Shown one piece after another: positions 33,159-48,532 of a stretch of DNA of 64,000 nucleotides. The notes below the pieces were generated by a model. That model was given only the letters and a program-made list of their open reading frames with translations. It did not search any database and was not told where the DNA came from. Source of the stretch: an uncultured Opitutia bacterium (lineage in GTDB: Bacteria > Verrucomicrobiota > Verrucomicrobiia > Opitutales > Opitutaceae); the NCBI GenBank assembly GCA_903877135.1, contig CAIRCN010000014.1, forward strand, positions 62,001-126,000, given 5' to 3'. The stretch's first letter is position 1. The number at the start of each line of letters is the position of its first letter. The translations under genes were made by a program, and so were the position numbers.

Positions 33159-33812
33159 ATGTCGCAACTTTTCCCGAAATCGGCGAACAAACTGCCGCTC
33201 CAGATCGCGATCTACCTGGTCGTGCTCGTCGGCCTCGCGACGGCGGGCGTGACCTATTACATGACGCCGAAATACACGCGCGTCGGTTACGCGCCTGTGC
33301 AGCCGGTGCCCTACAGCCACGCGCTCCACGTCGGCCAGCTCGGCCTCGACTGCCGTTACTGCCACAGCAACATCGAGCAGTCCGGCTATGCCAACATCCC
33401 CACGTCGCAGACGTGCATGAACTGCCACAACCAGGTGAAGAAGGACAGCCCCCTCCTCGCCGTCGTGCGCAAGAGCTACGAGACGGGCGAGGCGGTGCCC
33501 TGGGTGAAGATCCACCAGGTGCCGGACTATGTTTATTTCAATCATGCCGTGCACGTGAACCGCGGCGTCAGCTGCGTCGAGTGCCACGGCAAGATCAACG
33601 AGATGGAGGTCGTCGCCCACGCCCAGCCGCTGAGCATGGGTTTCTGCCTCAACTGCCACCGCGACCCCGCGACGTTCGTGCGCGAGAAGGCCGACATCTA
33701 TAACCTCGATTCACCCACGATTGCCGCCAGGGCGGGCCCGGAAGCTGGCAGCAAGTTTGTGCATGACTGGAAAATCAAGCCCCCGCAAAGCTGCACCGGC
33801 TGTCATCGATGA
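33159..33812 (+). CDS. actA: alternative complex III subunit ActA, pentahaem cytochrome c
   Basis: 217-residue periplasmic cytochrome held by an N-terminal membrane helix (LQIAIYLVVLVGLATAGVTYY). Five CxxCH haem motifs are visible: CRYCH, CMNCH, CVECH, CLNCH and CTGCH, with distal histidines in the conserved SHALH and NHAVH segments. Alternative complex III is a quinol:cytochrome c (or oxidase) oxidoreductase replacing the bc1 complex. Five haems is the usual ActA number. Overlaps actB by 4 bases. All actA-F genes follow on one strand with minimal gaps. Confidence 0.94.
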   Translation: MSQLFPKSANKLPLQIAIYLVVLVGLATAGVTYYMTPKYTRVGYAPVQPVPYSHALHVGQLGLDCRYCHSNIEQSGYANIPTSQTCMNCHNQVKKDSPLLAVVRKSYETGEAVPWVKIHQVPDYVYFNHAVHVNRGVSCVECHGKINEMEVVAHAQPLSMGFCLNCHRDPATFVREKADIYNLDSPTIAARAGPEAGSKFVHDWKIKPPQSCTGCHR

Positions 33813-36800
33813 AACGCAAATTTGAACATCCCGCCCCGTCCGAGCGCGAGCTGACCGGCCCGAAATACTGGCGCAGCCTCGACGAACTGGCCGCCACGCC
33901 CGGTTTCAAGGCGCAGTTGGAGCGCGAATTTCCCGACGGTGCCTCGCTGCCCGACGGTGTCGACCGCCGGCATTTCATGAAAATCATGGCGGCATCCTTC
34001 GCGCTCGGCGGGCTCAGCCTCGCCGGTTGCCGCCGTCCGGAGAAATTCGTGCTGCCCTACGGCAAATCCGTCGAGGGCGTCATCCCCGGCCTGCCGCGCT
34101 ATTTCGCCACCGCGATGCCGCTGCGTAAGTCGGCCATCCCGCTGCTCGCCGAGACGCAACAGGGCCGCCCGACCAAGCTTGAGGGCAACCCGACCTACGC
34201 GCCCCACGGCGGCGCCAGCTCGCTCCTCGCCCAGGCCTCGGTCCTCGACCTCTACGATCCCGAGCGCGCCACCGCGCACACGCAGGACGGCGCCGTGCTC
34301 GACGCTGCGGCGGTCAACGCCCTGCTCGCCAAGATCGGCGCCGACTATGCCGCGACCAGCGGCGAGGGCCTGGCCTTCCTCGCCGAAGAATCCTCCTCGC
34401 CCACGCGCTCGCGCCTCGTCGCGCAGTTGAAGCAGGCGCTGCCCCGCGCCATCTGGGCGGAATACGAGCCGGTGGCCGACGAACCGCCGCTGACGGCCGC
34501 GCAGTCTGCGTTCGGCCAGAACGTCAAACCCCTCTACCGTTTCGCGAAGGCGAAGCGCATCGTCTCACTCGACGCCGATTTCTTCCACTCCGAGGCGGGC
34601 AGCCTCTACTACGCCCGCGAGTTCGCCAAGGGCCGCCGCGTGGCTTCCCGCGAAGACGCGGAGAAGATGAACCGCCTCTACGTCGCCGAGAGCGGCTTTA
34701 CGCTCACCGGCGGCATGGCCGACCACCGCCTGCGCCTCGCGAGCAGCCACATGCTGGCGCTGGCGGCGGCGCTGGCGGTCAAGGTCACCGGCAGCAGCAC
34801 GTTTGCGCCGCTCGCCGAGGGCCTCGACGTCAAGGCCCAGTGGATCGAGGAGTGCGCCGCCGACCTGCGCGCGCACCAAGGCGAGAGCCTCGTGGTTGCA
34901 GGCGCGCACCTGCCAGCGCAGGTCCACGCGATCGCCTACGCCATCAATTCCGCCCTTGGCAACATCGGTGCCACTGTCGATTTCGTTACCGTGGAAGCCC
35001 AGGGCGCCACCAACATCAAGGGCCTTGCCATCGCCATCCGCGCCAACCTAGTGAAGACGCTGGTCGTCCTTGGCGGCAATCCCGCCTACAACGCCCCGGC
35101 CGATCTCGACTGGGTGGCGTTGCAGAAATCGGTCCCGCAGGTCGTGCGCTTCGGATACTACCGCGACGAGACGTCGGCGCTCGCCGGCACGCACCTCGCC
35201 GCCGCGCACTACTTGGAATCGTGGGGCGACGCTCGCACCGTTGACGGCACGGTCGTGCCGGTGCAGCCGATGATTCTGCCGCTGTTTGGCGGGCAGACCG
35301 AGATCGAGGTGCTCGCCCGCATTGGCGGCCTCGCCAACGCCGATCCCTATGCGCTGGTTTTCCAGACGATCACCGCGCTCGCAGGCGGCGACGCCGACAA
35401 GACGTTCCGCAAATTCCTCCACGACGGCCTGCTCGAAGGCTCGGCCTACGCGCCCGTCCCGGTGGCGTTCAATGCCGACGCGGTCTCGGCGCTCTTTGCC
35501 AAGGCAGCCAAGTTCGAGGCGCTGTCGAAAGACAACCTCGAGGTGCGCTACGTCACCGACCACAAGATGGACGACGGCCGGTTCGCGAACAACGGCTGGC
35601 TGCAGGAGTGCCCGGACCCGATCACCAAGATTTCCTGGGACAACGCCATCCTCATCAGTCCGCGGCTGGCCCGCGAGATCGGCGTCTATCCGCAGGGCTC
35701 GTTCCTCCAGATCGCCCGCATCGAGGGCGTCGAGAGCGATCCGATGGGGCGCGAGAATTCCCACGTCGCCGAGATCACCGTCGGGGGGCGCAAGATTCGC
35801 GGCCCGATCCATGTCCAGCCCGGCCTCTCGAATTACACGCTGATCCTGCCGCTCGGCTACGGCCGCACGAAGGCGGGGCATGTCGGCACCGGCGCGGGCT
35901 TTGATGTTTATCCGCTCCGCACCACCGGCGCGATGGCGTTCGCCACCGGCGCCACAATCACACTGACGGGCGCGAAGATGGTGTTGGCGAACACACAGGC
36001 GCACTGGTCGATGGAAGGCCGCGACCTCGTTCGCGAGGCCAACGCGACCGGCCCGGACAGTTACGCGGAAAATCCCGCATTCGTCGAGGAGGTTGGCATG
36101 GAGGCCGAGACGCCTTCCACGATAGGGGAGGAGGGGAGGAAAATGACGCCCGCCCAGCGCGCCACACTGCTGCCGCGCGGCAACTCGCTCTACAAGACGC
36201 CGGATTTCCAGGGCCTGGAGCAATGGGGCATGTCGATCGACCTCAACACCTGCACCGGCTGCAATGCCTGCGTGGTGGCGTGCCAGGCCGAGAACAACAT
36301 CCCGATCGTCGGCCGCGAGCAGGCGATCCGCGGCCGCGAGATGCATTGGATCCGTCTCGACCGCTACTACTCAGACGGCCGGGCTGACGCCGGAGCCTTT
36401 GGCGGCGATAATAACCGCGAGATTCCCGAGGATCCCCAGGTCTCGCTGCAACCCGTCGCCTGCATGCAGTGCGAGCTCGCGCCCTGCGAAATGGTCTGCC
36501 CGGTCAACGCCACCGTCCACGACGACGAAGGCCTGAACACCATGGCCTACAACCGGTGCATCGGCACCCGTTACTGCGCCAACAACTGCCCCTACAAGGT
36601 CCGCCGTTTCAATTATTTCGACTGGAATCAGCGCCAGCTCGACAGCCTCTATCTCGGTCCGGTCGGACCGCAGGGGATGCCTGAGCTTGTCCAGATGGCG
36701 AAAAACCCTGAGGTCACCGTCCGCATGCGCGGCGTGATGGAAAAGTGCACCTACTGCACGCAGCGCATCCAGAACGGCAAGATCCAGCACAAGGTGAAAA

Positions 36801-37174
36801 CTGCCCAGGCCGGCAATCCCGCGGACGTCATCGTGCCCGATGGCACGATCAAGAGCGCTTGCCAGCAGGTGTGCCCGGTCGAAGCCATTGTGTTCGGCAA
36901 CATCCTCGACCCCGAGAGTGTCGTCTCGAAAGCCAAGGCCCTCTCACAGGATTACTCGCTCCTCGGCTATCTTAATGTCCGTCCGCGCACCACGTATCTT
37001 GCAAAGCTGCGCAACCCGAACCCACGCATGCCCGACTATGCCGCCCTGCCGCTCAGCCGCGTGGAGCACGACCGGAAAAATCATCCTGGCGAGGCCCACC
37101 CGGCCGCGGAACCCAAAACCGGCCGAGAGCATGCCGCGCAACCGGTGAACCCAACCTTCGGAGGACTTAGCTGA
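33809..37174 (+). CDS. actB: alternative complex III subunit ActB, molybdopterin-like / iron-sulfur fusion
   Basis: 1121 residues. Near residue 50 is a Tat-type signal ([23 protein letters not shown]), exporting a folded subunit. The N-terminal large part is homologous to molybdopterin oxidoreductases but the family carries no molybdenum site. The C-terminal quarter binds four clusters: [42 protein letters not shown], and CTYC plus CQQVCPV, giving three [4Fe-4S] and one [3Fe-4S] in known members. Quinol oxidation electrons pass through these to ActA/ActE haems. Shares one base with actC (TGATG). Confidence 0.94.
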
Positions 37175-38598
37175 TGGCCCACGCCCAACACGCAGCCGCG
37201 CCGGCCATTCTTCAGGAAGTGAAACCCGCCGTGGTGCCCCGGGCGGTGCTCGTCCAGAACAACCGCAGCTTTGCATGGATCACGGATAAAATCTGCGGCA
37301 TCATCGAGGGCAAGACCCCCACCTGGTGGTGGGTCTGCTTCATCGTTGCGTGCTTTGTCGCGTCGTTCACGGTCGCAGGAATCACCTACCTCGTCGCGAC
37401 CGGCGTCGGCGTGTGGGGCCATCGCAGCCCGGTCAACTGGGGCTGGCCGATCGTCAACTTCGTCTTCTGGATCGGTATCGGCCATGCGGGCACGCTGATC
37501 TCGGCCATTCTGTGTCTGCTGCGCCAGAAGTGGCGCACGTCGATCAACCGCGCCGCCGAGGCCATGACGATCTTCGCCGTCGTCTGCGCTGGCATCTTCC
37601 CGGTCTTTCACGTCGGCCGCGTCTGGTATGCGTGGTTTCTCTTCCCGCTCCCGAACTCGAACCTGATCTGGCAGAACTTCCGCTCGCCGCTCGAGTGGGA
37701 CGTGTTCGCCGTCTCGACCTACGGCACGGTGTCGGTGCTGTTCTGGTATGTCGGGCTGATCCCGGACCTCGCGGTGCTCCGCGACCGTTTCTACGCGACG
37801 GGCAACAAGACCCGCTCGTTCCTCTACGGCCTCTTCGCCATGGGCTGGCGCGGCTCCAACCGCCACTGGAGCAACTACGAGATGGCCTACCTCATCCTGG
37901 CCGGCATCGCCACGCCGCTCGTGCTCTCCGTGCACACCATCGTGTCGTTCGACTTCGCCGTCTCGCTCATCCCCGGGTGGCACACGACCATCTTCCCTCC
38001 TTACTTCGTTGCCGGGGCCATTTTCTCCGGCTTCGGCATGGTGCTGACGCTCATGCTGCCCCTGCGCGCGATCTACCACCTCGAGGATCTGATCACGCAG
38101 TATCACATCGACTGCATGTGTAAGATCACCCTGGCGACCGGCACCATGGTCGGCTACGCCTACGCGATGGAGTTCTTCATCGCGTGGTATAGCGCGAACC
38201 CCTATGAAGGCTTCACCTTCATCAACCGCGCCTTCGGTCCCTACGCCTGGGCCTACTGGATCATGATCACCTGCAATGTGGTCACGCCCCAGCTCTTCTG
38301 GTTCAAGCGGGTGCGGACGAACACCACGCTCGTCTGGGTGCTCTCGATCTTCGTCAACGTCGGCATGTGGTTCGAGCGCTTCGTGATCATCTGCACCTCG
38401 CTCACCCGCGACTTCCTGCCGTCGAGCTGGGGCTATTTCAGTCCGACGATCGTGGATATCTTCACGTTCTTCGGCACGTTTGGCGTGTTTTCCGTGCTGT
38501 TCCTCCTCTTCATCCGGTTCCTGCCCATCATGCCGATGGCGGAAATTAAGGCCGTCACGCAGCAGGCCGACGTGCACTCCGGCTCCGACCACCACTAA
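37174..38598 (+). CDS. actC: alternative complex III subunit ActC, NrfD-like quinol-site membrane protein
   Basis: 474 residues with about ten transmembrane helices; the NrfD/PsrC superfamily subunit that contains the quinol-binding site and a proton path. Hallmarks: [82 protein letters not shown] and [20 protein letters not shown]-like stretches. Length normal. Starts within the actB stop. Confidence 0.95.
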
Positions 38599-38610: not shown

Positions 38611-39144
38611 ATGTCCGCCCAACCCTATGGCTTGATCGCCACGTTCGAGACTCCCGCGGAGGTTTACCATGCGGCAGAGCAGGTGCGCGACGCCGGTTAC
38701 AAGCACTGGGATGTCATCTCCCCGTGCCCCATCCACGGGCTCGACAAGGCGATGGGCCTCAAGCGCTCCATCGTCCCGCGCATCTCACTCGCCGGCGGCA
38801 TCACCGGCTTCATCACCGGCATGACGCTGATCTGGTGGACCGACGCCTTCGACTATCCGCTTATCGTCGGCGGCAAGCCGCTGTTCAGCCCGATGTTCGC
38901 GTTCCCGGTTTCCTACGAGCTGACAATTCTCTTCACCGCCTTCGCGACGATCATCGGTATGTTTGTCGTCAACGGCCTCCCCATGCACTATCACCCGGTG
39001 CTCAAATACGACAAGATCCGGCGCGGGATGGACGACCAATTCTTCATCGTCATCGAGGCGCGCGATCCCCGTTTCAACGCCGCCAACACCGGCGTCCTGC
39101 TGCAGAAAATCGGCGGCAAGGAAATCACGGAGCTGGAGCCCTGA
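38611..39144 (+). CDS. actD: alternative complex III subunit ActD
   Basis: 177-residue DUF3341-type subunit. The cytosolic N-terminal part (GLIATFETPAEVYHAAEQVRD, DVISPCPIHGLDKAMGLKRS) is followed by two membrane helices (GGITGFITGMTLIWW and FAFPVSYELTILFTAFATIIGMFV). It has no redox motifs and stabilises the membrane arm. Family-typical length and position after actC, 12 bp apart. Confidence 0.92.
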   Translation: MSAQPYGLIATFETPAEVYHAAEQVRDAGYKHWDVISPCPIHGLDKAMGLKRSIVPRISLAGGITGFITGMTLIWWTDAFDYPLIVGGKPLFSPMFAFPVSYELTILFTAFATIIGMFVVNGLPMHYHPVLKYDKIRRGMDDQFFIVIEARDPRFNAANTGVLLQKIGGKEITELEP

Positions 39145-39147
39145 GCC

Positions 39148-39783
39148 ATGCGTAACGTTTACCTCGTCACAGCGTTTCTCGTGGTGCTCACGCTTTCCGT
39201 GCTGGGCTTTCGCGGCACTAAGTTCACCCATCCGCCGATGGACGTGTTTCCGGAGTGGGCGTTTCCGAGCATGCGCCACCAGCCGAAATACAAACCTCAG
39301 TCGGAGAGCCAATTCTTCGCCGACGGGCGCACTGACCGCCCGTTGCCCGCTGGCGTTGTCTCGCGCGACCCGCTCCGCAACGACGACGCGCTCTATCTCG
39401 GCAAAGCTGCCGACGGCACCTGGCTTCGCGGTTTCCCTGCGGCCGTCACCGTCGATGGCAAACTCATCGCCCGCGGCCGAGAGCGGTTCACGATCTACTG
39501 TTCGCCCTGCCACGGTGCGCTCGGCGATGGCAACGGCATCACGAAACAATACGGCATGGGCGCCACGCCCACCTACCATGACGACCGCCTCCGCCAGATG
39601 GCCGAGGGCGAAATCTTCAACACCATCACGCGCGGCAAAAACAACATGCTGTCCTACGCCGACAAACTGAAACCCGAGGACCGCTGGGCGGTGATCCTGT
39701 ACGTCCGTGCGCTCCAACGTGCGCAAACCGGCGCAGTGTCCGATGTCCCGGCCGCCCACCAACCGGAGCTTGGCCTAAAATGA
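39148..39783 (+). CDS. actE: alternative complex III subunit ActE, monohaem cytochrome c
   Basis: 211 residues with an N-terminal hydrophobic signal/anchor (NVYLVTAFLVVLTLSVLGF), then MDVFPEWAFPSMRHQPKYKPQ and one CxxCH motif (YCSPCHGALGDGNG). ActE accepts electrons from the ActA haems and hands them to a soluble or oxidase-bound cytochrome. The start is 3 bases after the actD stop. Overlaps actF by 4 bases. Confidence 0.93.
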   Translation: MRNVYLVTAFLVVLTLSVLGFRGTKFTHPPMDVFPEWAFPSMRHQPKYKPQSESQFFADGRTDRPLPAGVVSRDPLRNDDALYLGKAADGTWLRGFPAAVTVDGKLIARGRERFTIYCSPCHGALGDGNGITKQYGMGATPTYHDDRLRQMAEGEIFNTITRGKNNMLSYADKLKPEDRWAVILYVRALQRAQTGAVSDVPAAHQPELGLK

Positions 39784-41021
39784 GCACGCCCGCCGCCTCC
39801 GCCCCAGTTCATTCGACCGCCGCCCTCGCCCAAAAGGCGCTGGTCATCGGTCTCGCGGGCATCGTCCTCACTGCGCTTGGCATCTTGGTTTCCGGCCCGC
39901 AGGCCGTGGCCTACTCCTGGCTGGTGGGCATTTCGTATTGGACGGCGATCGCCATCGGCATGCTCCTGATGGTGCTGATCCACCACATTTTCGACGCCTC
40001 CTGGTCAGTCGTCCTCCGCCGCCAGCTCGAACACGGCCTCTCCGCCTTTAAGTGGCTCGCGCTCCTCTTCCTCCCGCTGGTCCTGGCGACGCTCTTTTAC
40101 CGGCTCGATCTCGTCTGGCCGTGGATGAATCCGGCGCACGCGCTGGCTGGCCACGAAACCGTCGCGGGCGACATTCTCTACACGAAGAAGTCGAGCTTCC
40201 TAAATCTGAAGACCTTCATCGGCATGACGGCGCTGTTCTTCGTGGTCTGGATCTGGCTTTCCGCCCGGCTGCGCAAGGCCTCGTTCACTCAGGACGCCGA
40301 CGGCGACGTCAAGTGGACGCGCATGAACCGCGTCACCGCCGCCATGGGCCTCCCGCTCGCGGCGCTCACGCTGACCTTCGCGGCGATCTACTGGATTAAG
40401 AGCCTCGAATACCACTGGTTCTCCACGATGTATGGCGTGTGGTTTTTCGCCAACTGCTTCCGTGGCGCCCTTTCTGTCAGCGTGCTCATCATGCTCTGGC
40501 TCTGGCGGCGCGGCGACTACAAGGGCATCCTCAACAACAACCACCTCCACAGCGTCGGCCAGCTCATGCTCGCCCTCACGGTGTTCTGGGCCTACGTGAC
40601 CTTTTCGCAGTATTTCCTGATCTGGAACGCCAACCTCCCAGAGGAAACCTTCTGGTATAACCTCCGCGAGTATGGCGACTGGTGGGGCACCGGCCTCGTG
40701 ATCCTCTTCGGCCACTTCGTCGTCCCGTTCCTCCTGCTGCTCTCCTACCGCTTCAAGGTTACCCACCGCACGATCCGCCGCATCGCCCTTTGGATTCTCG
40801 CTGTGATTTTGATCGACCTTTGTTACAACATTCTCCCGGCCATCAAGGACGCCGCCGGCCACCCGAAACCCTTCCTCTCGTTCAATCTCCTATGGGTGCT
40901 GACCTCCGTGATCGGCGTCGGCGGCATCTGCTGTTGGTCCTACTTCCGCAGTTTTCCGACCGCCAAACTCATTCCGATCCGCGACCCGCGCATCAACGAG
41001 TGCCTGACCCACCATGAGTGA
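39780..41021 (+). CDS. actF: alternative complex III subunit ActF
   Basis: 413-residue membrane protein of the NrfD superfamily, paralogous to ActC, with about ten helices: YSWLVGISYWTAIAIGMLLMVLIHHIFDASWSV, WLALLFLPLVLATLFY, FLNLKTFIGMTALFFVVWIWL, WFANCFRGALSVSVLIMLWLW, HSVGQLMLALTVFWAYVTFSQYFLIW and WWGTGLVILFGHFVVPFLLLL. It contributes to the membrane domain and proton path. Overlaps the following small gene by 8 bases, linking ACIII to the CcoN-like block. Confidence 0.93.
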   Translation: MSTPAASAPVHSTAALAQKALVIGLAGIVLTALGILVSGPQAVAYSWLVGISYWTAIAIGMLLMVLIHHIFDASWSVVLRRQLEHGLSAFKWLALLFLPLVLATLFYRLDLVWPWMNPAHALAGHETVAGDILYTKKSSFLNLKTFIGMTALFFVVWIWLSARLRKASFTQDADGDVKWTRMNRVTAAMGLPLAALTLTFAAIYWIKSLEYHWFSTMYGVWFFANCFRGALSVSVLIMLWLWRRGDYKGILNNNHLHSVGQLMLALTVFWAYVTFSQYFLIWNANLPEETFWYNLREYGDWWGTGLVILFGHFVVPFLLLLSYRFKVTHRTIRRIALWILAVILIDLCYNILPAIKDAAGHPKPFLSFNLLWVLTSVIGVGGICCWSYFRSFPTAKLIPIRDPRINECLTHHE

Positions 41022-41346
41022 GCCATCCTCCCAGTCCGCCCCGTTCCCCCTCGTGCTGACCGTGCTGGTCGGCTTCGCCCTGTTCCTCCTAGTCGTGGCC
41101 TTTGTCTATGTGCCGAGGCAGACCGGCACGTTCGTCGGCGACGGCATCCGCACAGCCGAACAGCGCCAGGCCAACCTCGCTGCGCTGCGCGCCAAGGAAC
41201 TCAAGCAGGCCACCACCTACGGCTGGGCCGACCAAAAGGCCGGCATCGTGCGCCTGCCGCTCGACCGCGCGATGGAACTCACCGTCCGTGATTTCGCCGC
41301 AAAACGGCAAACCCAGCAAATTCGTGACCTGCCTTCGCACTATTAA
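41014..41346 (+). CDS. small membrane protein between actF and the CcoN-like gene
   Basis: 110 residues: one membrane helix (FPLVLTVLVGFALFLLVVAFVYV), a charged helix (RTAEQRQANLAALRAKELKQ) and a periplasmic tail with YGWADQKAGIVRLPLDRAMELTVRDFAAK. The 'WxDxxxGIVRLPLDRAMEL' pattern recurs in small respiratory-operon proteins of other bacteria. No cofactor motif. It overlaps actF by 8 bases and precedes the CcoN-like gene by 11, so it is likely a subunit or assembly factor. Function not known. Confidence 0.75.
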   Translation: MSEPSSQSAPFPLVLTVLVGFALFLLVVAFVYVPRQTGTFVGDGIRTAEQRQANLAALRAKELKQATTYGWADQKAGIVRLPLDRAMELTVRDFAAKRQTQQIRDLPSHY

Positions 41347-41357
41347 TTTTTGATGCG

Positions 41358-42767
41358 ATGAACACCGCCTCCCAAGCCGAAGTCAGCGAAATCGACCCCT
41401 CCGCACGGTGCACGTTGACGCTGTTGATCGCCACCGCGCTCTTCTGGCTCGTTGTGAGCGGCGTGCTCGCGCTGCTCAATTTCATCCAGGCCTTCACCCC
41501 GACCTTCCTCGCTGACTGCCCGCTTTTCACCTACGGCCGCCTCCGGGCCCTGCAGGAAACCGCCTTCCTCTACGGCTGGGCCGCCAACGCCGGCGTCGCC
41601 GTCGCCCTCTGGCTCCTCGCCCGCCTCGGTGGCGCGCCCCAGCGCTCGCTCAACTGGACGCGCGCCGGCACGGTTTTCTGGAACGTCGGCGTCCTCGCCG
41701 GCCTGATCGGCATCGCGTGCGGCGAGGGCAGCTCCGCCGCCGGTCTGCACCTGCCGGGCTACATCCAGCCGCTCCTTCTGGTCGCGTTTGGCGCGATGGC
41801 CGTCCCCGGTGTCCTCGCGTGGACCGGCCGCAGCCGGCCCGTGACCTTCGCGGCGCAGTGGTATGCGGTCGCGGCCCTGTTCCTCTTCCCCTGGCTCTTT
41901 TCCGCCGCACAGGTGACGCTGCTCTGTGCGCCGGTGCGCGGTGTGCTGCAGGCCATCGCTGGCGGTTGGTTCGTGCAAGGCCTCTGGACCCTCTGGCTCG
42001 CGCCGCTCGCCCTCGCCGCGGCCTATTATCTCCTACCGAAGATCACCGGCCGCGTGATTCCCAACTACGATTTCGCCTCGTTCGGTTTCTGGACCCTGCT
42101 CGTCGTCGGCGGCTGGACGGGCGGGCGCCACCTTGTGGGCGGGCCGGTTCCCGCTTGGGTCGTCACCGTCGCCATCGTGTCCTGCACGCTGCTCCTGATC
42201 CACTACCTCGTCGTCGCCATCAATCTCCGCGGTGCGTTCGGCCAGCCGGGCGTCGTGCTCAAGTTCGTCGGCTTCGGCCTCGCCGCCTATCTGCTCGGCG
42301 GCCTCGCCGACGCTGTCACCGCGATGCGCAGTGTCGCCGTGCTCACGCAGTTCACCTGGTTCGCGCAGGCGCAAAGCCAGCTCGCCCTCGGGGGCGCCTT
42401 CTCGATGATCGTCTTCGGCGCGATTTATTTCCTGACGCCCCGCATCACCGGCCAGGCCTGGCTCTCCACGCCGCTCATCCGCGCCCACTACGCCGCCGCC
42501 GGGCTCGGCACCGTCGTCCTCATCGGCAGCCTCGCCGCCGCCGGCTGGGTGCAGGGCCACGACCTGGCCAACGCCAGCGTCTCTTTCGCCGACATCGCCG
42601 TCCACACGCGCCCGTGGCTCCAGACGGCCGCCGCCGCGCAGGCGCTGCTCGTCGTCGGCAACGCCCTCTTCGCGCTGCACTTCCTCCGCTCGGTCTGCCC
42701 CTGTAACGCCGGCGCCACGACCCTTCCCTTCCGCCAGCCTCCGACGATGGAGGCGTCCGCATCATGA
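41358..42767 (+). CDS. CcoN-like haem-copper oxidase subunit I lacking five of six metal-ligand histidines
   Basis: 469-residue, about 12-helix protein aligning with cbb3-oxidase subunit CcoN throughout (TYGRLRA..ETAF, AAYYLLPKITGRVI, FGAIYFLTPRITGQ). The redox sites are gone. In helix 2 the low-spin haem His is Gln66 (LRALQET for LRPLHT). The copper His of GHNAVGF is Gln207. The HH pair of GPHHLHY is Arg257-His258. The HVH pair that binds the two haems is Gln339-Ser340-Gln341. The position equivalent to the cross-linked Tyr before HH is Gly251. So it cannot bind haem b, b3 and CuB in the usual way. The reading frame is intact and coupled to neighbours. Probably a structural or quinone/proton-related partner of ACIII; the role is inference. 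Confidence 0.85.
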   Translation: MNTASQAEVSEIDPSARCTLTLLIATALFWLVVSGVLALLNFIQAFTPTFLADCPLFTYGRLRALQETAFLYGWAANAGVAVALWLLARLGGAPQRSLNWTRAGTVFWNVGVLAGLIGIACGEGSSAAGLHLPGYIQPLLLVAFGAMAVPGVLAWTGRSRPVTFAAQWYAVAALFLFPWLFSAAQVTLLCAPVRGVLQAIAGGWFVQGLWTLWLAPLALAAAYYLLPKITGRVIPNYDFASFGFWTLLVVGGWTGGRHLVGGPVPAWVVTVAIVSCTLLLIHYLVVAINLRGAFGQPGVVLKFVGFGLAAYLLGGLADAVTAMRSVAVLTQFTWFAQAQSQLALGGAFSMIVFGAIYFLTPRITGQAWLSTPLIRAHYAAAGLGTVVLIGSLAAAGWVQGHDLANASVSFADIAVHTRPWLQTAAAAQALLVVGNALFALHFLRSVCPCNAGATTLPFRQPPTMEASAS

Positions 42768-43405
42768 GAAACGGCCTGATTTTTTTCGTTGGCCTGTTTG
42801 CCGCCCTGCTCGCCTCGTGGGCCGGCGTCGTCCTTGGCTCCAACGCCCAGCTCGGCCGCCTCGCGCCCTACTACGACGAGAACGAAGGCAAGGCCTTCCC
42901 CGAGCGCGCCCCCGGCCTCGCCGCCCGCGGCCAGTTGGTTTACGATGACCTCGGTTGCGCCGCGTGCCACACCCAGCAGGTCCGCCGGCCCGGTTTCGGC
43001 AACGACAAGGCCCGCGGCTGGGGCGACCGCCAGAACGTCGCCCGCGACTACATCCACCAGACCCGCGTCCAGCTCGGCGCCAGCCGCCTCGGCCCCGACC
43101 TCGCCAACGTCGGCGCCCGCAAGCCCCCCTACGACGCCGAGGATTTCCTCAAACTCCTCTACACCGGCAACGGCGGCATGCCCGCCTACCGATTCCTCTT
43201 TGAGACCCGCGCCGTCGTCGGTCAGGTATCCGCCAAAGCCCTCCACTTCACCGGTGCTCTCGCCCCCGCCGCCGGCCGCGAACTCCTCCCGACCCGCCGC
43301 GCCGAGGCGCTGGTCGCCTACCTGCTCAGCTTGAACAACGCCTACGAATATCCCGAGGCCCGCCCCGTCGAGCCGGCCGCCGCCCAGGAAGGGACCAAGC
43401 CATGA
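42764..43405 (+). CDS. ccoO: CcoO-like monohaem cytochrome c
   Basis: 213 residues: an N-terminal membrane anchor (LIFFVGLFAALLASWAGVVLG) and one c-type haem, CAACHTQQVRRPG at Cys65-Cys68-His69, the CcoO signature CxxCHTQ. The axial Met is probably in GNGGMPAYRFLF. About 40 residues after the haem includes LGASRLGPDLANVG, also typical of CcoO. It overlaps the ligand-less CcoN-like gene by 4 bases, keeping the ccoN-ccoO order. In a normal cbb3 oxidase CcoO passes electrons to the binuclear centre; here no such centre exists, so it must pass them elsewhere. Symbol by homology only. Confidence 0.85.
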   Translation: MRNGLIFFVGLFAALLASWAGVVLGSNAQLGRLAPYYDENEGKAFPERAPGLAARGQLVYDDLGCAACHTQQVRRPGFGNDKARGWGDRQNVARDYIHQTRVQLGASRLGPDLANVGARKPPYDAEDFLKLLYTGNGGMPAYRFLFETRAVVGQVSAKALHFTGALAPAAGRELLPTRRAEALVAYLLSLNNAYEYPEARPVEPAAAQEGTKP

Positions 43406-44064
43406 GCGCCCCGTCCCCCCACGATCCCCGCCTCGAACAGGCCGGCGCCACCGACGAGAGCCTCCTCGCCGCCCACGAACAGGCGCTCGGCAAGAAGCCC
43501 GACGACAAGGCGCACTACAAGCTGCTGCCGCTCGCACTGCTGTTCATTTTCAGCGGCATCATCTTCTACGCCGGCACCTATCTCAACCATTACTCCGGCG
43601 GCTACAGTGCCGCGGTCTTCGACGAGAACGGCCATCCCGCCGCCGGCGCCGCGCCCGCCAAGATTGATCCCCTCGTCCTCGGTAAGAAAAACTACGAGCT
43701 CGTCTGCACCACCTGCCATCAGGCCACCGGCTTGGGCGTTCCCGGTGTCTATCCGCCCTTGGCCGGCTCAGAGTGGGTCAACGGTTCCGAGGAGCGGATG
43801 ATTCGCATCGTGGTTTACGGCCTCAAGGGCCCGCTGCACGTCAAGGGCGCCAATTTTGGTGCTGCCGCGATGCCCGTATTCGGCAAGGTCGCCGGCTCCG
43901 GCTACAACTGGAACGACGAAAAAATCGCCGCCGTGCTTTCTTACGTGCGCCAGGAATGGGGCAACAAGTCCGCTCCCATCACCGCTGACAAGGTAGCCGC
44001 CATCCGCGCCAAGGAAGGCGACCGCAAGGAATGGGCGCAGGACGAACTGCTCAAGCTACCTTGA
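43402..44064 (+). CDS. membrane-anchored monohaem cytochrome c (CcoP-position)
   Basis: 220 residues with a cytosolic N-terminus, one helix (LLPLALLFIFSGIIFYAGTYL) and a periplasmic class I cytochrome c domain: CTTCHQATGLGVPGVYPPLAG at Cys102-Cys105-His106 and probable Met ligand in GAAAMPVFG. It is similar to CoxB/CcoP-type donor cytochromes but has only one haem (true CcoP has two). Overlaps the CcoO-like gene by 4 bases. Last gene of the respiratory operon; no clear terminator follows. Confidence 0.88.
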   Translation: MSAPSPHDPRLEQAGATDESLLAAHEQALGKKPDDKAHYKLLPLALLFIFSGIIFYAGTYLNHYSGGYSAAVFDENGHPAAGAAPAKIDPLVLGKKNYELVCTTCHQATGLGVPGVYPPLAGSEWVNGSEERMIRIVVYGLKGPLHVKGANFGAAAMPVFGKVAGSGYNWNDEKIAAVLSYVRQEWGNKSAPITADKVAAIRAKEGDRKEWAQDELLKLP

Positions 44065-44688: not shown

Positions 44689-46551
44689 ATGATCCGCAAA
44701 ACTGTAGGGCGCAAGCTGACGACCGCCGTGGGTCTCACTGTGCTGCTGATCGTCAGCGCTTTTGCCTACGTCAACATCCGTTCGCACGAGGAAAGCCTAC
44801 TCGCGGAGGTCGAGCGCCACGCGATCCAGATCAGCCAGACGGTGAAATCGAGCACCGAGTATGACATGCTGCTGAACGAGCCCAACCGCATCCACGAGAT
44901 CATCCGGCGTCTCGGCGAGGAGGAGAGTATCGAGCGCATCCGGATCATGAACAAGGCCGGCAAGATCACTTACTCGTCCGATGTCCGGGAGATTGGAAAG
45001 ACCGTCAACTCCCGGGCGGAGAGTTGCAGCCGCTGCCATGACGTCGATCCGCCGCTCGAACGTCTCGAAATGAGGGCGCGGACCCGTGTCTTCCGGCGTC
45101 CGAACGACAGCAGCCGGGCGCTGGGCGTTATCACGCCGATCTACAACCAGCCGTCGTGCTGGACGGCGGACTGCCACGCGCATCCGAAATCGCGGAAGGT
45201 CCTGGGCGTCTTCGACGTCGTCATGCCGCTCGCGGCGGTCGACGCGGACCTGCGCGTCGGGCGCATCGAGATTGTTGTCTTCGCGGCCAGCGCCGTCCTC
45301 GCGCTGAGCCTCATCACCGCTTTTTTTGTGCGGCGCTGGGTCAGCGAGCCGGTCAAGCAGCTGGTCGCAGCGACCCAGCGCGTGGCCGGCGGCGATCTCA
45401 GCCAGGCCATTGACGAGACGCGCCGGGACGAACTCGGCCTGCTCGCGCGGTCCTTCAACCACATGACGCGGAAGATATCGGAGGCGCGCCTGCAACTCGT
45501 GCAGTCCGACAAGCTGGCCTCGCTTGGCCGCCTCGCCGCGGGCGTCGCCCACGAGATCAACAACCCCCTGACCGGTGTGTTGACTTACAGCAGCATGATG
45601 CTCAGACGGGCGCGCACACCCGACGAGCAGGAAGACCTCAAGGTCATCGTCCGGGAGACCATCCGCTGCCGCGACATCGTCAAGAGCCTGCTCGACTTCG
45701 CCCGCCAGAGCGTGCCGACCAAGCGGGAGTCTAACATCAACGAGGCGATCCTGCGGGCCAGCTCGGTCGTAGAGCGCCAGCTCTCGCTGAGCCGCATCGT
45801 TGTCATGAAGGACCTGCAACCCGGCCTCCCGCACCCGGTCATGGATTCCAACCAGATGGAGCAGGTGTTCATGAACCTGATCGTGAATGCGGCGGACGCC
45901 ATCGGTCCGGAAGGCGGCAAGATCGTCCTGCGCTCGTCGGCTGTCAGCCTCTCGCCGGTCGGCGTCGTGCAGATCAAGCACGCGGTTTGCCCGAAGCGGC
46001 ACAACCTGATCGATGGCGAGGTGCGGTTCGAAGGCAAACCCTCGATCCGGATCAAGGCGCGTTGCGATGGCCAGGAGGGCTTCATCCACTTTGATCCGGT
46101 GTATGGAAACGCCGCGCACCGCCACGGGTTCATTTGCGACGACCAGAAGAAGGCCCAGTTTGTATGCCCCGAATGCTCGACCTCCCTGGTCAGCGAGGGC
46201 CGGACCTGCCCGCGCTGCGGTGGTCCCGTCCTGACCTTCGAGGCCCCGCCGAAAGGCTTCGTGGAAACTTGCACGCGCAAGAAATGCGGCTGGCAGCGCT
46301 GGATGGATATCGACGCGGCCGGCGACCGGGAATTCATCGAGATTCAGGTTCGCGACTCCGGCTGCGGCATCTCCGCCGAGGAGTTGGTGAAGATTTACGA
46401 GCCGTTCTATTCCACGAAGGGCGCCAAGGGTACGGGTCTCGGGCTCTCGGTGGCGTGGGGCATCATCGACAGTCACAACGGCTCCATCAAGGTGGAGAGC
46501 ATGGTGGGCAAAGGCACCACGTTCACCGTCCGAATACCGGTCAAACCATGA
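44689..46551 (+). CDS. c-haem sensor histidine kinase with zinc-ribbon insert in the ATPase domain
   Basis: 620-residue membrane kinase. N-terminal helix (about 12-30); an outer sensing domain to about 190 with two haem-like motifs, CSRCH (113-117) and the wider CWTADCH (157-163, Cx4CH); second helix 193-214; HAMP; HisKA with VAHEINNPLTG (phospho-His289); HATPase N box around Asn400 (NLIVNAADAI), G1 DSGCGIS (556-562), F box YEPFYSTK, G2 GTGLGLS. Between N and G1 lie about 155 residues instead of the usual 30-40. The insert (about 420-547) has Cys434, 459, 483, 493/496, 507/510, 528 and 533, forming a zinc-ribbon-like unit (CPEC...CPRCGG). Good AAGGAG site at 44677. Operon with two regulators by ATGA-type overlaps. 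Confidence 0.9.
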   Translation: MIRKTVGRKLTTAVGLTVLLIVSAFAYVNIRSHEESLLAEVERHAIQISQTVKSSTEYDMLLNEPNRIHEIIRRLGEEESIERIRIMNKAGKITYSSDVREIGKTVNSRAESCSRCHDVDPPLERLEMRARTRVFRRPNDSSRALGVITPIYNQPSCWTADCHAHPKSRKVLGVFDVVMPLAAVDADLRVGRIEIVVFAASAVLALSLITAFFVRRWVSEPVKQLVAATQRVAGGDLSQAIDETRRDELGLLARSFNHMTRKISEARLQLVQSDKLASLGRLAAGVAHEINNPLTGVLTYSSMMLRRARTPDEQEDLKVIVRETIRCRDIVKSLLDFARQSVPTKRESNINEAILRASSVVERQLSLSRIVVMKDLQPGLPHPVMDSNQMEQVFMNLIVNAADAIGPEGGKIVLRSSAVSLSPVGVVQIKHAVCPKRHNLIDGEVRFEGKPSIRIKARCDGQEGFIHFDPVYGNAAHRHGFICDDQKKAQFVCPECSTSLVSEGRTCPRCGGPVLTFEAPPKGFVETCTRKKCGWQRWMDIDAAGDREFIEIQVRDSGCGISAEELVKIYEPFYSTKGAKGTGLGLSVAWGIIDSHNGSIKVESMVGKGTTFTVRIPVKP

Positions 46552-47366
46552 GCTCTGTGCGTGACATTCTCGTGATCGACGACGAGCCGGTGGTCCTGCA
46601 GGGCGTGGAGCGAATCTGCCGCGGCGAGGGCCTGGCCGTCGACACGGCGACCGGCGGCGTGACCGGCCTGCAGCAACTCGAAAAACACGCCTACCGGCTG
46701 ATCCTTTGCGACATCATGATGGAGGACCTGGACGGCTTCGGGTTTCTGGCGGAGTCCCGCCGCCGGGGCAACCGCTCGCCCGTCGTCCTCGCCTCGGGCT
46801 ATTCCACCGGCGAGAATGCGATCCGCTCCCTGCAGTGCGGGGCCTTTGACTACGTCGCCAAGCCGTTTACTGCGGACGAGCTCATGGCCGTCATCCGGCG
46901 GGCGCTGAATTACAGCTCTCTGCTGGCGGAGAACCCGGAGGCGTTGCCGGCGACCGCGCCTCGCGCCGAAAATATCCACCGCCTCGGCCGCGTGAGCTGG
47001 GCGGCGTCAAAACTGGAGGGCACGGTGGTCATCGGCGTCGACGATCTCTTCGTCAATACGATCCAGGGACTGCGGAGCGTCGAACTCGCGCCCGTTGGAG
47101 CCTATCTTGTGCAGGGGACGGGCTGCGCGACGATCGTCTCGACCGACGGCCTCGCCCACAGCGTCATGTGCCCGGTGAGCGGACAGGTGCTCCAGGCTCA
47201 CGCCGAGGCGGCGGCGAATATTTCCATGATCGAGAAGGACCCGTTCGGAGCGGGTTGGCTCTACCGGCTGCTGCCCTCCGACTTGGAATACAGCTTCAGG
47301 TGTCTTACTTTCCCGTCGGATCCAATTGATCAGTGGCAAGTGCATCAAAAAGGAGAAACATCATGA
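46548..47366 (+). CDS. response regulator with GcvH-like C-terminal domain (1)
   Basis: 272 residues. The receiver (1-125) has the acidic pocket VIDDEP, phospho-acceptor Asp55 in ILCDIMM and Lys105 in AKPFTADEL. It has no DNA-binding domain. Residues about 147-250 match the glycine-cleavage H protein fold: RVSWAASKLEGTVVIGVDDLFVNTIQG, VELAPVGAYLVQG, CPVSGQVLQAH and DPFGAGWLYRL. In real GcvH the lipoyl Lys lies 11 residues before the G of PVSG; here that residue is Gly201, so no lipoyl group can be attached. Overlaps the kinase by 4 bases. Confidence 0.88.
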   Translation: MSSVRDILVIDDEPVVLQGVERICRGEGLAVDTATGGVTGLQQLEKHAYRLILCDIMMEDLDGFGFLAESRRRGNRSPVVLASGYSTGENAIRSLQCGAFDYVAKPFTADELMAVIRRALNYSSLLAENPEALPATAPRAENIHRLGRVSWAASKLEGTVVIGVDDLFVNTIQGLRSVELAPVGAYLVQGTGCATIVSTDGLAHSVMCPVSGQVLQAHAEAAANISMIEKDPFGAGWLYRLLPSDLEYSFRCLTFPSDPIDQWQVHQKGETS

Positions 47367-48532
47367 TTATCGGCATTTTTATTATCTTCGCCCTTATTGC
47401 TTTCGCTGTCGATCTGGCGGCGCGCAAAATTCTCGAGCGCGTCCGCGTCCGACGCCGGCTCCTGGAGCGTGAGGAGGCGCTCGCGGTGAGCCTGAAACTC
47501 AATTTCTTAAGCGAGGCCCCGACGCTCAAGCGCGCCGAGGTCGACAACCCCGGCGCCCGCATCCTCTGCGTCGACGATGAGGAGATCGTCCTGGACAGTT
47601 TCCGCAAGATTCTCGTCCTGGACGGCTACTCGGTCGACACAGTGCAGACGGGACCCGAGGCGCTGGGGCTCATCCAGACGCGCCACTACGATTTTGTTTT
47701 CACCGACCTGCGGATGCCAGCCATGGACGGTGTCGAGGTGGCGAAGTCCGTCAAGCACATGCGCCCTGACGTCGACGTGGTCATCATCACCGGCTACGCG
47801 ACGGTCGAGACGGCGGTCGAGTGCATGAAATCTGGTGCATTGGATTACGTGCAGAAGCCTTTCACCGAGGACGAACTGCGGGCGTTTGTGCGAAAGGCAC
47901 TGATCAAGCGGCAAGACCAGATCGCGAAGCGGTTACTGCCGAAGATCCGCATCACGCAAGGAACCGAATCGGGCGCCATCCTGGCGGGCGAATTTTCCAT
48001 CCCCGGCGGCGTGTGGATTTCCAAGGGCCATTGCTGGGCCAGCCTGTCGGAAGACGGCGCAGCTAGGATTGGCATGGATGATTTTGCAAAGAAACTGATC
48101 GGCCGCGTGGATGCCTACGAAATGCCTGCGCCCGATGCCATGGTGCGGGCGGGGCAGCCGTTGTTTGCAGTCCGCCAAGGCACCCGCCGTATCCAGTTTC
48201 ACGCCCCCGTCAGCGGTCGCGTGGTCCGGGTCAACCCCGCCTTGCCGGCTATGAAGCAAAGACCGGGTGTGAGCCCTTATCACAACCACTGGGTCTGCGA
48301 GATCGCCGGAGAAGATCTGGGTGTTGAAATCCCGACGCTCAAGATTGGCAGTTCGGCAGTGGCTCTGTTTCAGGAAGACATCGGTCGGTTCACCGGCTTG
48401 ATGCGCGATGTGGCCAAGTCGGAGTATCCTGGAGACGTCGCGGACCACGTCCTGTGCATCGGCGCGCTGGAGGCATTGACGGATGACCAGTGGAATCGGG
48501 TGGCCGGAGACTTTTTTGGCAGATCCGGTTGA
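47363..48532 (+). CDS. membrane-anchored response regulator with GcvH-like domain (2)
   Basis: 389 residues. An N-terminal membrane helix (IIGIFIIFALIAFAVDLAARKIL), then a receiver (about 64-183) with VDDEE, Asp115 in VFTDLRMPAMDG and Lys165 in YVQKPFTEDEL, then a GcvH-like domain (about 215-320: GGVWISKGHCWASLSEDGAARIGMDDFA, QPLFAVRQGTRR, APVSGRVVRVNPAL). The lipoyl-Lys position is Thr274. A last unrecognised part (320-389) has LGVEIPTLKIG and ALEALTDDQWNRV. RBS AAGGAG at 47349-47354 decides the start; ATGA overlap with the previous gene. No output DNA-binding domain. Confidence 0.88.
   Translation: MIIGIFIIFALIAFAVDLAARKILERVRVRRRLLEREEALAVSLKLNFLSEAPTLKRAEVDNPGARILCVDDEEIVLDSFRKILVLDGYSVDTVQTGPEALGLIQTRHYDFVFTDLRMPAMDGVEVAKSVKHMRPDVDVVIITGYATVETAVECMKSGALDYVQKPFTEDELRAFVRKALIKRQDQIAKRLLPKIRITQGTESGAILAGEFSIPGGVWISKGHCWASLSEDGAARIGMDDFAKKLIGRVDAYEMPAPDAMVRAGQPLFAVRQGTRRIQFHAPVSGRVVRVNPALPAMKQRPGVSPYHNHWVCEIAGEDLGVEIPTLKIGSSAVALFQEDIGRFTGLMRDVAKSEYPGDVADHVLCIGALEALTDDQWNRVAGDFFGRSG

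Follow-up and report, generated by a model that had tools for sequence, protein, structure and literature searches.

The window analysed here is a 64,000-nucleotide stretch of contig CAIRCN010000014.1 (positions 62,001 to 126,000) from an uncultured Opitutia bacterium of the Opitutaceae. On its forward strand lies a gene cluster in the order actA-B-C-D-E-F-orf110-N-O-P. It begins with genes for an ActA-like multihaem cytochrome c (33159–33812; PF14522, E 5e-16) and an ActB-like Fe-S protein (33809–37174; PF12838, E 7.5e-18), both assigned also from position and homologues. These are followed by genes for the NrfD-like membrane subunit ActC (37174–38598; PF03916, E 3e-26), ActD (38611–39144; PF11821, E 4.3e-65) and an ActE-like monohaem cytochrome c (39148–39783; PF13442, E 4.6e-11). 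The ActF-like membrane subunit (39780–41021) gave no match above the cut-off in the Pfam search of the window proteins and is named from its place in the cluster and from homologues at the same place. The presence of actA to actF in order, with ActF assigned by position only, corresponds to an alternative complex III (ACIII) locus.

A 110-aa protein with one hydrophobic segment (residues 5–42) is encoded next, at 41014–41346 of the same strand. It gave no match in Pfam or NCBIfam searches, and we name it a candidate ActG by analogy only; many loci have a homologue in this same place, behind actF and ahead of N. The sequence-only reading of this DNA, which had placed N directly behind actA-F, was therefore right about the shared cluster and wrong about immediate adjacency. 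As in cbb3-type clusters, genes for CcoO- and CcoP-like haem c proteins stand behind N. O is a CcoO-like monohaem cytochrome c (42764–43405, +; PF02433, E 1.2e-9) in which the CXXCH motif and Met139 are kept, and P is a CcoP-like monohaem cytochrome c (43402–44064, +; PF00034, E 2.9e-10) with an N-terminal hydrophobic segment (37–63). Both score under the NCBIfam cut-offs (O against ccoO, 36.3 bits with a cut-off of 200.65), and the N/O and O/P overlaps are both ATGA. Further behind P, at 44689–48532, are genes for a 620-aa HAMP-HisKA-HATPase sensor kinase and two tandem response regulators; each of these fuses a receiver domain with one resembling glycine-cleavage protein H (PF01597), which is an uncommon combination.

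N itself (41358–42767, +) is an open reading frame of 469 aa with an ATG start, joined to the O gene through the ATGA at 42764–42767. PF00115 covers its residues 22–427, corresponding to profile positions 5–433 of 436 (E 1.2e-32; 113.7 bits, cut-off 34.8), and the closest PDB chains are those of CcoN, 9g6b (E 2.3e-12) and 3mk7 (E 2.3e-11). The NCBIfam ccoN model TIGR00780 reached 83.5 bits, below its cut-off of 583.15, and profile comparison with the intact cbb3 subunit of the same genome gave a probability of 98.3 over 350 columns. The nearest named relatives are proteins of uncultured Opitutae (60–68% identity), and the nearest fetched one (locus L058) is 69% identical. As an AlphaFold2 model built with four relatives as input was of low confidence (pLDDT 41, pTM 0.35), a probable retention of the fold is read from the alignment, the profile match and the count of 12 helices predicted in this model.

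The metal ligands were mapped in a MAFFT family alignment including CcoN of P. stutzeri, with the numbering of 3mk7. Out of the six histidines of the low-spin haem, haem b3 and CuB, N keeps only H258; H60 is replaced by Q66, H207 by Q207, H257 by R257, H345 by Q339 and H347 by Q341. The column of Y251, which we take to be the cross-linked Tyr of the active site in 3mk7, holds G251. A complete, CcoN-like protein with an intact frame coupled to a CcoO-like gene, with these same five His replacements and a Gly instead of the Tyr partner, is what the sequence-only reading had described, and the alignment reproduces its residue list without change. A shift of register does not restore the sites: none of the seven histidines of N (131, 258, 282, 377, 401, 416 and 441) is placed to rescue one, and the six His and the Tyr of canonical relatives occupy the same alignment columns. 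Given this ligand loss, O2 reduction by the N protein of the window is very unlikely.

Relatives were collected at three depths. N matched 50 of 57 genomes (its own included) at E ≤ 0.001 and 175 of 273 genomes of the order, the matches including other oxidases in both searches; with a canonical query, 131 of 188 genomes of the class matched at E ≤ 1e-30, and 13 near loci with 1.5 kb flanks plus 60 mostly distant loci were read from these. The state counts omit partial (L056, L057, L087) and duplicate (L034, L035) loci and copies away from act genes (L043, L088, L089), and retain L036 and L037. Two states of the locus were found, in ratios that do not stand for prevalence, as the loci were hand-picked and those of the class were chosen towards low identity: of 129 rows at order level, 47 retain the Tyr and the full set of six His (canonical) and 82 have lost two to six His (lost), while the 73 class-level loci comprise 14 canonical, 58 lost and one with a single change (L196). 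Among the order-level lost rows, two His are missing in 1, three in 5, four in 4, five in 40 and six in 32, and no row keeps both low-spin His. Loss on this scale among the order-level rows, and the recurrence of the window's six ligand letters in L058, show that the N of the window is neither a lone gene nor a product of chance.

The replacements differ between lineages. Written as the six ligand letters, the pattern of the window clade, shared by many rows of family f1, is QQRHQQ, and other genera of its own family have ANSRRW and AHSRRW. FGARRF and YGARHF occur in f8, QQASQQ in f19, QQHHHN in three rows of f2, and LNTYHW and AYVQQQ in f11, one in each of two genera. Replacement residues in lost rows include Gln, Ala, Arg, Phe, Tyr, Trp, Ser and others. 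The sequence-only reading had expected a clade with conserved Gln; Gln is one outcome among many, and loss recurs in several lineages. In f2, f8 and f35 every sampled member is a lost form with an intact frame.

Some loci deserve separate mention. The N protein of L196 reads HRHHHH with the Tyr kept, which may mark loss at a very early stage or else a mistake in the alignment or the sequence. In f36 (L200, L201, L202) the pattern is HNQRYH; the low-spin haem His pair is kept and the active-site ligands are gone, a possible intermediate. A gap of about two residues lies at or next to the CuB pair 257–258 in the class-level lost loci L207, L213, L219–L221, L227, L235, L250 and others. Genome G014 carries a second canonical N (L043) as a 999-aa open frame, with an A-type COX1 in the same stretch and no act genes found around it.

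As far as the genes were found, all 128 order-level loci and 71 of the 73 class-level ones have the gene order and strand of the window; in the two exceptions (L215 and L217, f30) the sequence that best matches P is found ahead of N, behind actF, and not after O. By gene order and co-conservation, N may be a physical part of ACIII. The lost proteins themselves keep much of the canonical sequence: canonical rows have 155 columns with an invariance of 95% or more, and in 72 of these, often Gly, Pro, Trp or Tyr columns, 70% or more of the lost rows show the same residue. Columns kept in fewer than 20% of lost rows include H60, H257, H345 and H347 as well as R57, W203, S240, Y251 and H337; of the remaining two ligands, H207 persists in 17 of the 82 lost rows and H258 in 26, the latter including the window. 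We assume functional roles for R57, W203 and S240, the last presumably as a K-path residue. Ala at position 240 is the sole column state conserved in at least 80% of lost rows that is absent from canonical ones. As 83% of lost rows have Ala at this position and 12% Ser, and a single row of the 82 retains Tyr251, the proton-translocating role that had been considered for N is disfavoured, and proton translocation by N appears unlikely.

No internal stops occur in the N matches listed from the 57-genome and order searches; in the class search, genome G404 has a 743-aa frame with an internal TAG. Omega of N is 0.06–0.26 in the 22 lost pairs of closest relatives, a set of overlapping pairs, whereas over all 481 lost pairs with dS of 0.1–1.5 its median is 0.53 (maximum 1.21), compared with 0.18 (maximum 0.47) in 38 canonical pairs. 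The low dN/dS expected for a functional pseudo-oxidase was thus obtained among close relatives and not over the whole set. As omega of deep pairs is saturated, the case for selection rests on the close pairs; saturated dS may inflate the values of lost pairs, but constraint on lost N is weaker. Relative to ActB, the median dN of N is 2.22 in lost and 0.80 in canonical pairs (about 2.8-fold), that of O 1.90 and 1.22, and that of P 2.02 and 1.58, whereas ActC (0.42 and 0.38) and ActF (1.07 and 1.19) are nearly unchanged. Low omega in close pairs, set against the raised overall omega and dN, indicates that constraint on lost N is relaxed but real.

The haem-binding motifs around N are maintained as well. 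Among the ActA homologues counted, all 66 from lost loci and 40 of the 41 from canonical loci have five CXXCH motifs. Among lost rows, with L196 placed among the non-canonical ones, CXXCH is kept in 137 of 139 O and 137 of 137 P proteins, and the axial Met column of P in 134 of 137. In O this column holds Met in 60 of 60 canonical and in 100 of 139 lost rows, the other 39 including Cys (13) and His (10), and the haem c potential of O may be shifted in lost loci with Cys or His there. The O proteins of L051, L055, L167 and L168 (f2, f18) are 374–388 aa long and have two CXXCH motifs instead of one. With purifying selection in close lost pairs, a conserved gene order and retained haem motifs, the description of N as a maintained pseudo-oxidase tied to ACIII by gene order holds.

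We then considered which other oxidases are encoded alongside lost forms. The genome of the window has three PF00115 genes, namely N (114 bits), an A-type-like gene (524 bits) and a cbb3 gene with all ligands (380 bits), together with one cytochrome b family gene; no bd oxidase was found in it. All 31 genomes with a full lost N among the 57, this one included, hold another PF00115 gene or a contig-end piece of one, whereas by hand count 2 of 16 canonical relatives (G041, 80% complete, and G046) have only the ACIII-linked gene. The ligands of these further genes were read in the genome of the window (cbb3) and in L080. Among loci with 800 or more bases available behind P, the module is followed by an A-type COX1 in 20 of the 117 lost ones and in none of the 45 canonical ones, an association that amounts to few independent events as it is confined to four families (f35, f53, f30 and f65). 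In 17 of these 20 loci the COX1 gene starts no more than 240 bases from P; in L203, L215 and L217 it starts 716–823 bases behind the last module gene found. In the window, no oxidase gene adjoins P.

Our results suggest that the lost subunit now serves as a structural mount for the neighbouring cytochromes and is not an oxidase. We consider it probable, though well short of certain, that N is a redox-dead membrane scaffold of ACIII carrying the two c-type cytochromes O and P. The ancestor would have been a working ACIII–C-type oxidase unit, and the change would have run from there to the lost state more than once, where another oxidase was present. N would keep a CcoN-like framework and most likely could hold neither low-spin haem, nor haem b3, nor CuB; as the ligands, the Tyr and the K-path Ser have been lost, we propose that it neither reduces O2 nor pumps protons. 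Selection would have retained it as a membrane scaffold docked to ACIII and bearing O and P, which would take electrons from the haems of ActA and ActE and deliver them to another oxidase that is intact, perhaps, in some lineages, the A-type enzyme encoded just behind the module. Taken as a whole, the interpretation given in the sequence-only reading is partly supported; a structural or docking role for N is what we infer.

Other explanations have to be weighed against this one. The module may be decaying slowly, having become obsolete after another oxidase took over and being passed on with the rest of the cluster, with selection acting only against toxic or disruptive changes. The higher dN of the three module proteins in lost lineages, the other PF00115 gene in every lost genome checked and the many non-Met residues at the axial position of O would fit such a course, but we regard it as unlikely in view of the low omega of close pairs, of N matches listed without internal stops, of c-type motifs kept almost everywhere and of three families (f2, f8 and f35) sampled exclusively as intact-frame lost forms. 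That N acquired a new active role, by binding a different cofactor or ligand where the haems used to sit, or by sensing or conducting something, also has a small probability: replacements are often fixed within clades, as QQRHQQ in f1 and QQHHHN in f2, but they differ between clades, and A240 is the only new conserved state. Quite improbable is a partial redox function, for example one low-spin haem or one copper site. The low-spin pair of f36 and the H258 of 26 order-level lost rows speak for it; the lack of any order-level lost row with both low-spin His, and the single ligand left in the window, speak against it.

The last rival is a single ancient dead clade, formed by one loss and spread by transfer. 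The counts of losses range from 4 to 18 between trees. A tree of ActB, ActC and ActF (112 rows, 68 lost) needs 17 state changes (Fitch), and at least 13 once branches with SH-aLRT below 90 are collapsed in favour of one loss; a class-wide tree of ActB and ActC (165 rows, 121 lost) needs 15. The tree of N with ligand columns omitted (107 rows) needs only 4 and places 56 lost rows in one group, which speaks for a single loss. Fast-evolving lost rows may be drawn to one another in N trees, and transfer may distort the Act trees. By identity, 26 of the 82 lost rows are nearer to a canonical row than to any lost row from a different genus; for the other 56 the lost row is equally near or nearer, which again favours a single origin. 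L094 and L095 group with the window clade by N and elsewhere in the family by ActB, ActC and ActF, an incongruence that points the same way and possibly reflects recombination or transfer of N-O-P. Against a single origin, the clearest case, which does not depend on any tree, is that of f11 g90, whose four N proteins are 60–62% identical to canonical f11 proteins and reach no more than 49% with lost rows from other genera. N of f24 g66 is 56–57% identical to canonical rows compared with 49–51% to lost rows of other genera; both group with canonical rows of their own family in the Act and N trees. An N tree of 41 rows needs 6 changes and rejects a single lost clade (AU p 0.0136), a value that is indicative only, as the rows were hand-chosen after the larger tree had been seen. 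A single loss is hence the least probable of these readings, and very improbable in itself; ligand loss arose more than once, apparently independently.

The lost form extends to Verrucomicrobia with particulate methane monooxygenase (pMMO). In f35, which is probably the methanotrophic Methylacidiphilaceae, PF02461 (AMO/pMMO) was found in 12 of 12 genomes listed, of 2.2–2.5 Mb; one f35 genome (G305) has PF02461 and gave no N match in the class-level search. All 10 f35 loci read have an ACIII-linked N with SESHFV or ADAHQV/T/I and an A-type COX1 within 240 bases of P. In published work on methanotrophic Verrucomicrobia, the genes beside ACIII are called a cbb3 oxidase and linked with a high affinity for O2 (PMC6688271). 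Two papers locate both cbb3 and aa3 genes alongside ACIII (PMC8498564, PMC11102522), and another counts cbb3 as one of the terminal oxidases (PMC10205796). By its ligand letters, the ACIII-adjacent "cbb3" gene of pMMO-bearing Verrucomicrobia is a lost form, though it is counted as an oxidase in these papers. In the portions of the open-access literature retrieved, no report of ligand loss in an ACIII-linked CcoN was found. A haem-copper oxidase classifier is described as discarding sequences without the six His (PMC3084760), a filter that may explain why the lost group was missed.

Compared with known systems, N shares with CcoN of cbb3 (C-type) oxidases the full-length COX1 profile, the closest PDB chains and the CcoO/CcoP-like genes that follow, and differs in lacking, in the window, five of the six His and the Tyr. 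The ACIII-linked C-type oxidase of Opitutaceae and verrucomicrobial methanotrophs has the same gene arrangement and is the published parent system; in the available passages of PMC8498564 it is treated as an oxidase and ligand loss goes unmentioned, whereas many members here lack the ligands. The ACIII-aa3/caa3 supercomplexes of Flavobacterium johnsoniae and Rhodothermus marinus likewise combine ACIII with adjacent oxidase genes and, according to excerpts of PMC5928083 and PMC8552683, transfer electrons directly to the adjacently encoded, active oxidase. Here a ligand-lost C-type module stands in that place and is itself followed by an A-type COX1 in four families.

Haem-copper oxidase genes are routinely taken to prove that O2 is reduced, and CcoN to indicate respiration with high affinity at low O2. 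In the lost form met across this class, pMMO-bearing genomes included, a CcoN-like gene accompanied by its cytochromes very probably cannot encode an oxidase. A broader reading, to which we would give somewhat less than an even chance, is that the ACIII-bound catalytic subunit was gutted many times and turned into an obligate adaptor, on which cytochromes are mounted and through which a different, functional oxidase is recruited. If true, such recurrent pseudo-oxidases would range over the class that holds Opitutae and methanotrophic Verrucomicrobia, and the published "high-affinity cbb3 oxidase" beside ACIII in the latter would be one of these adaptors. The family would then offer a natural experiment on what ACIII-oxidase assembly needs from an oxidase subunit besides catalysis.
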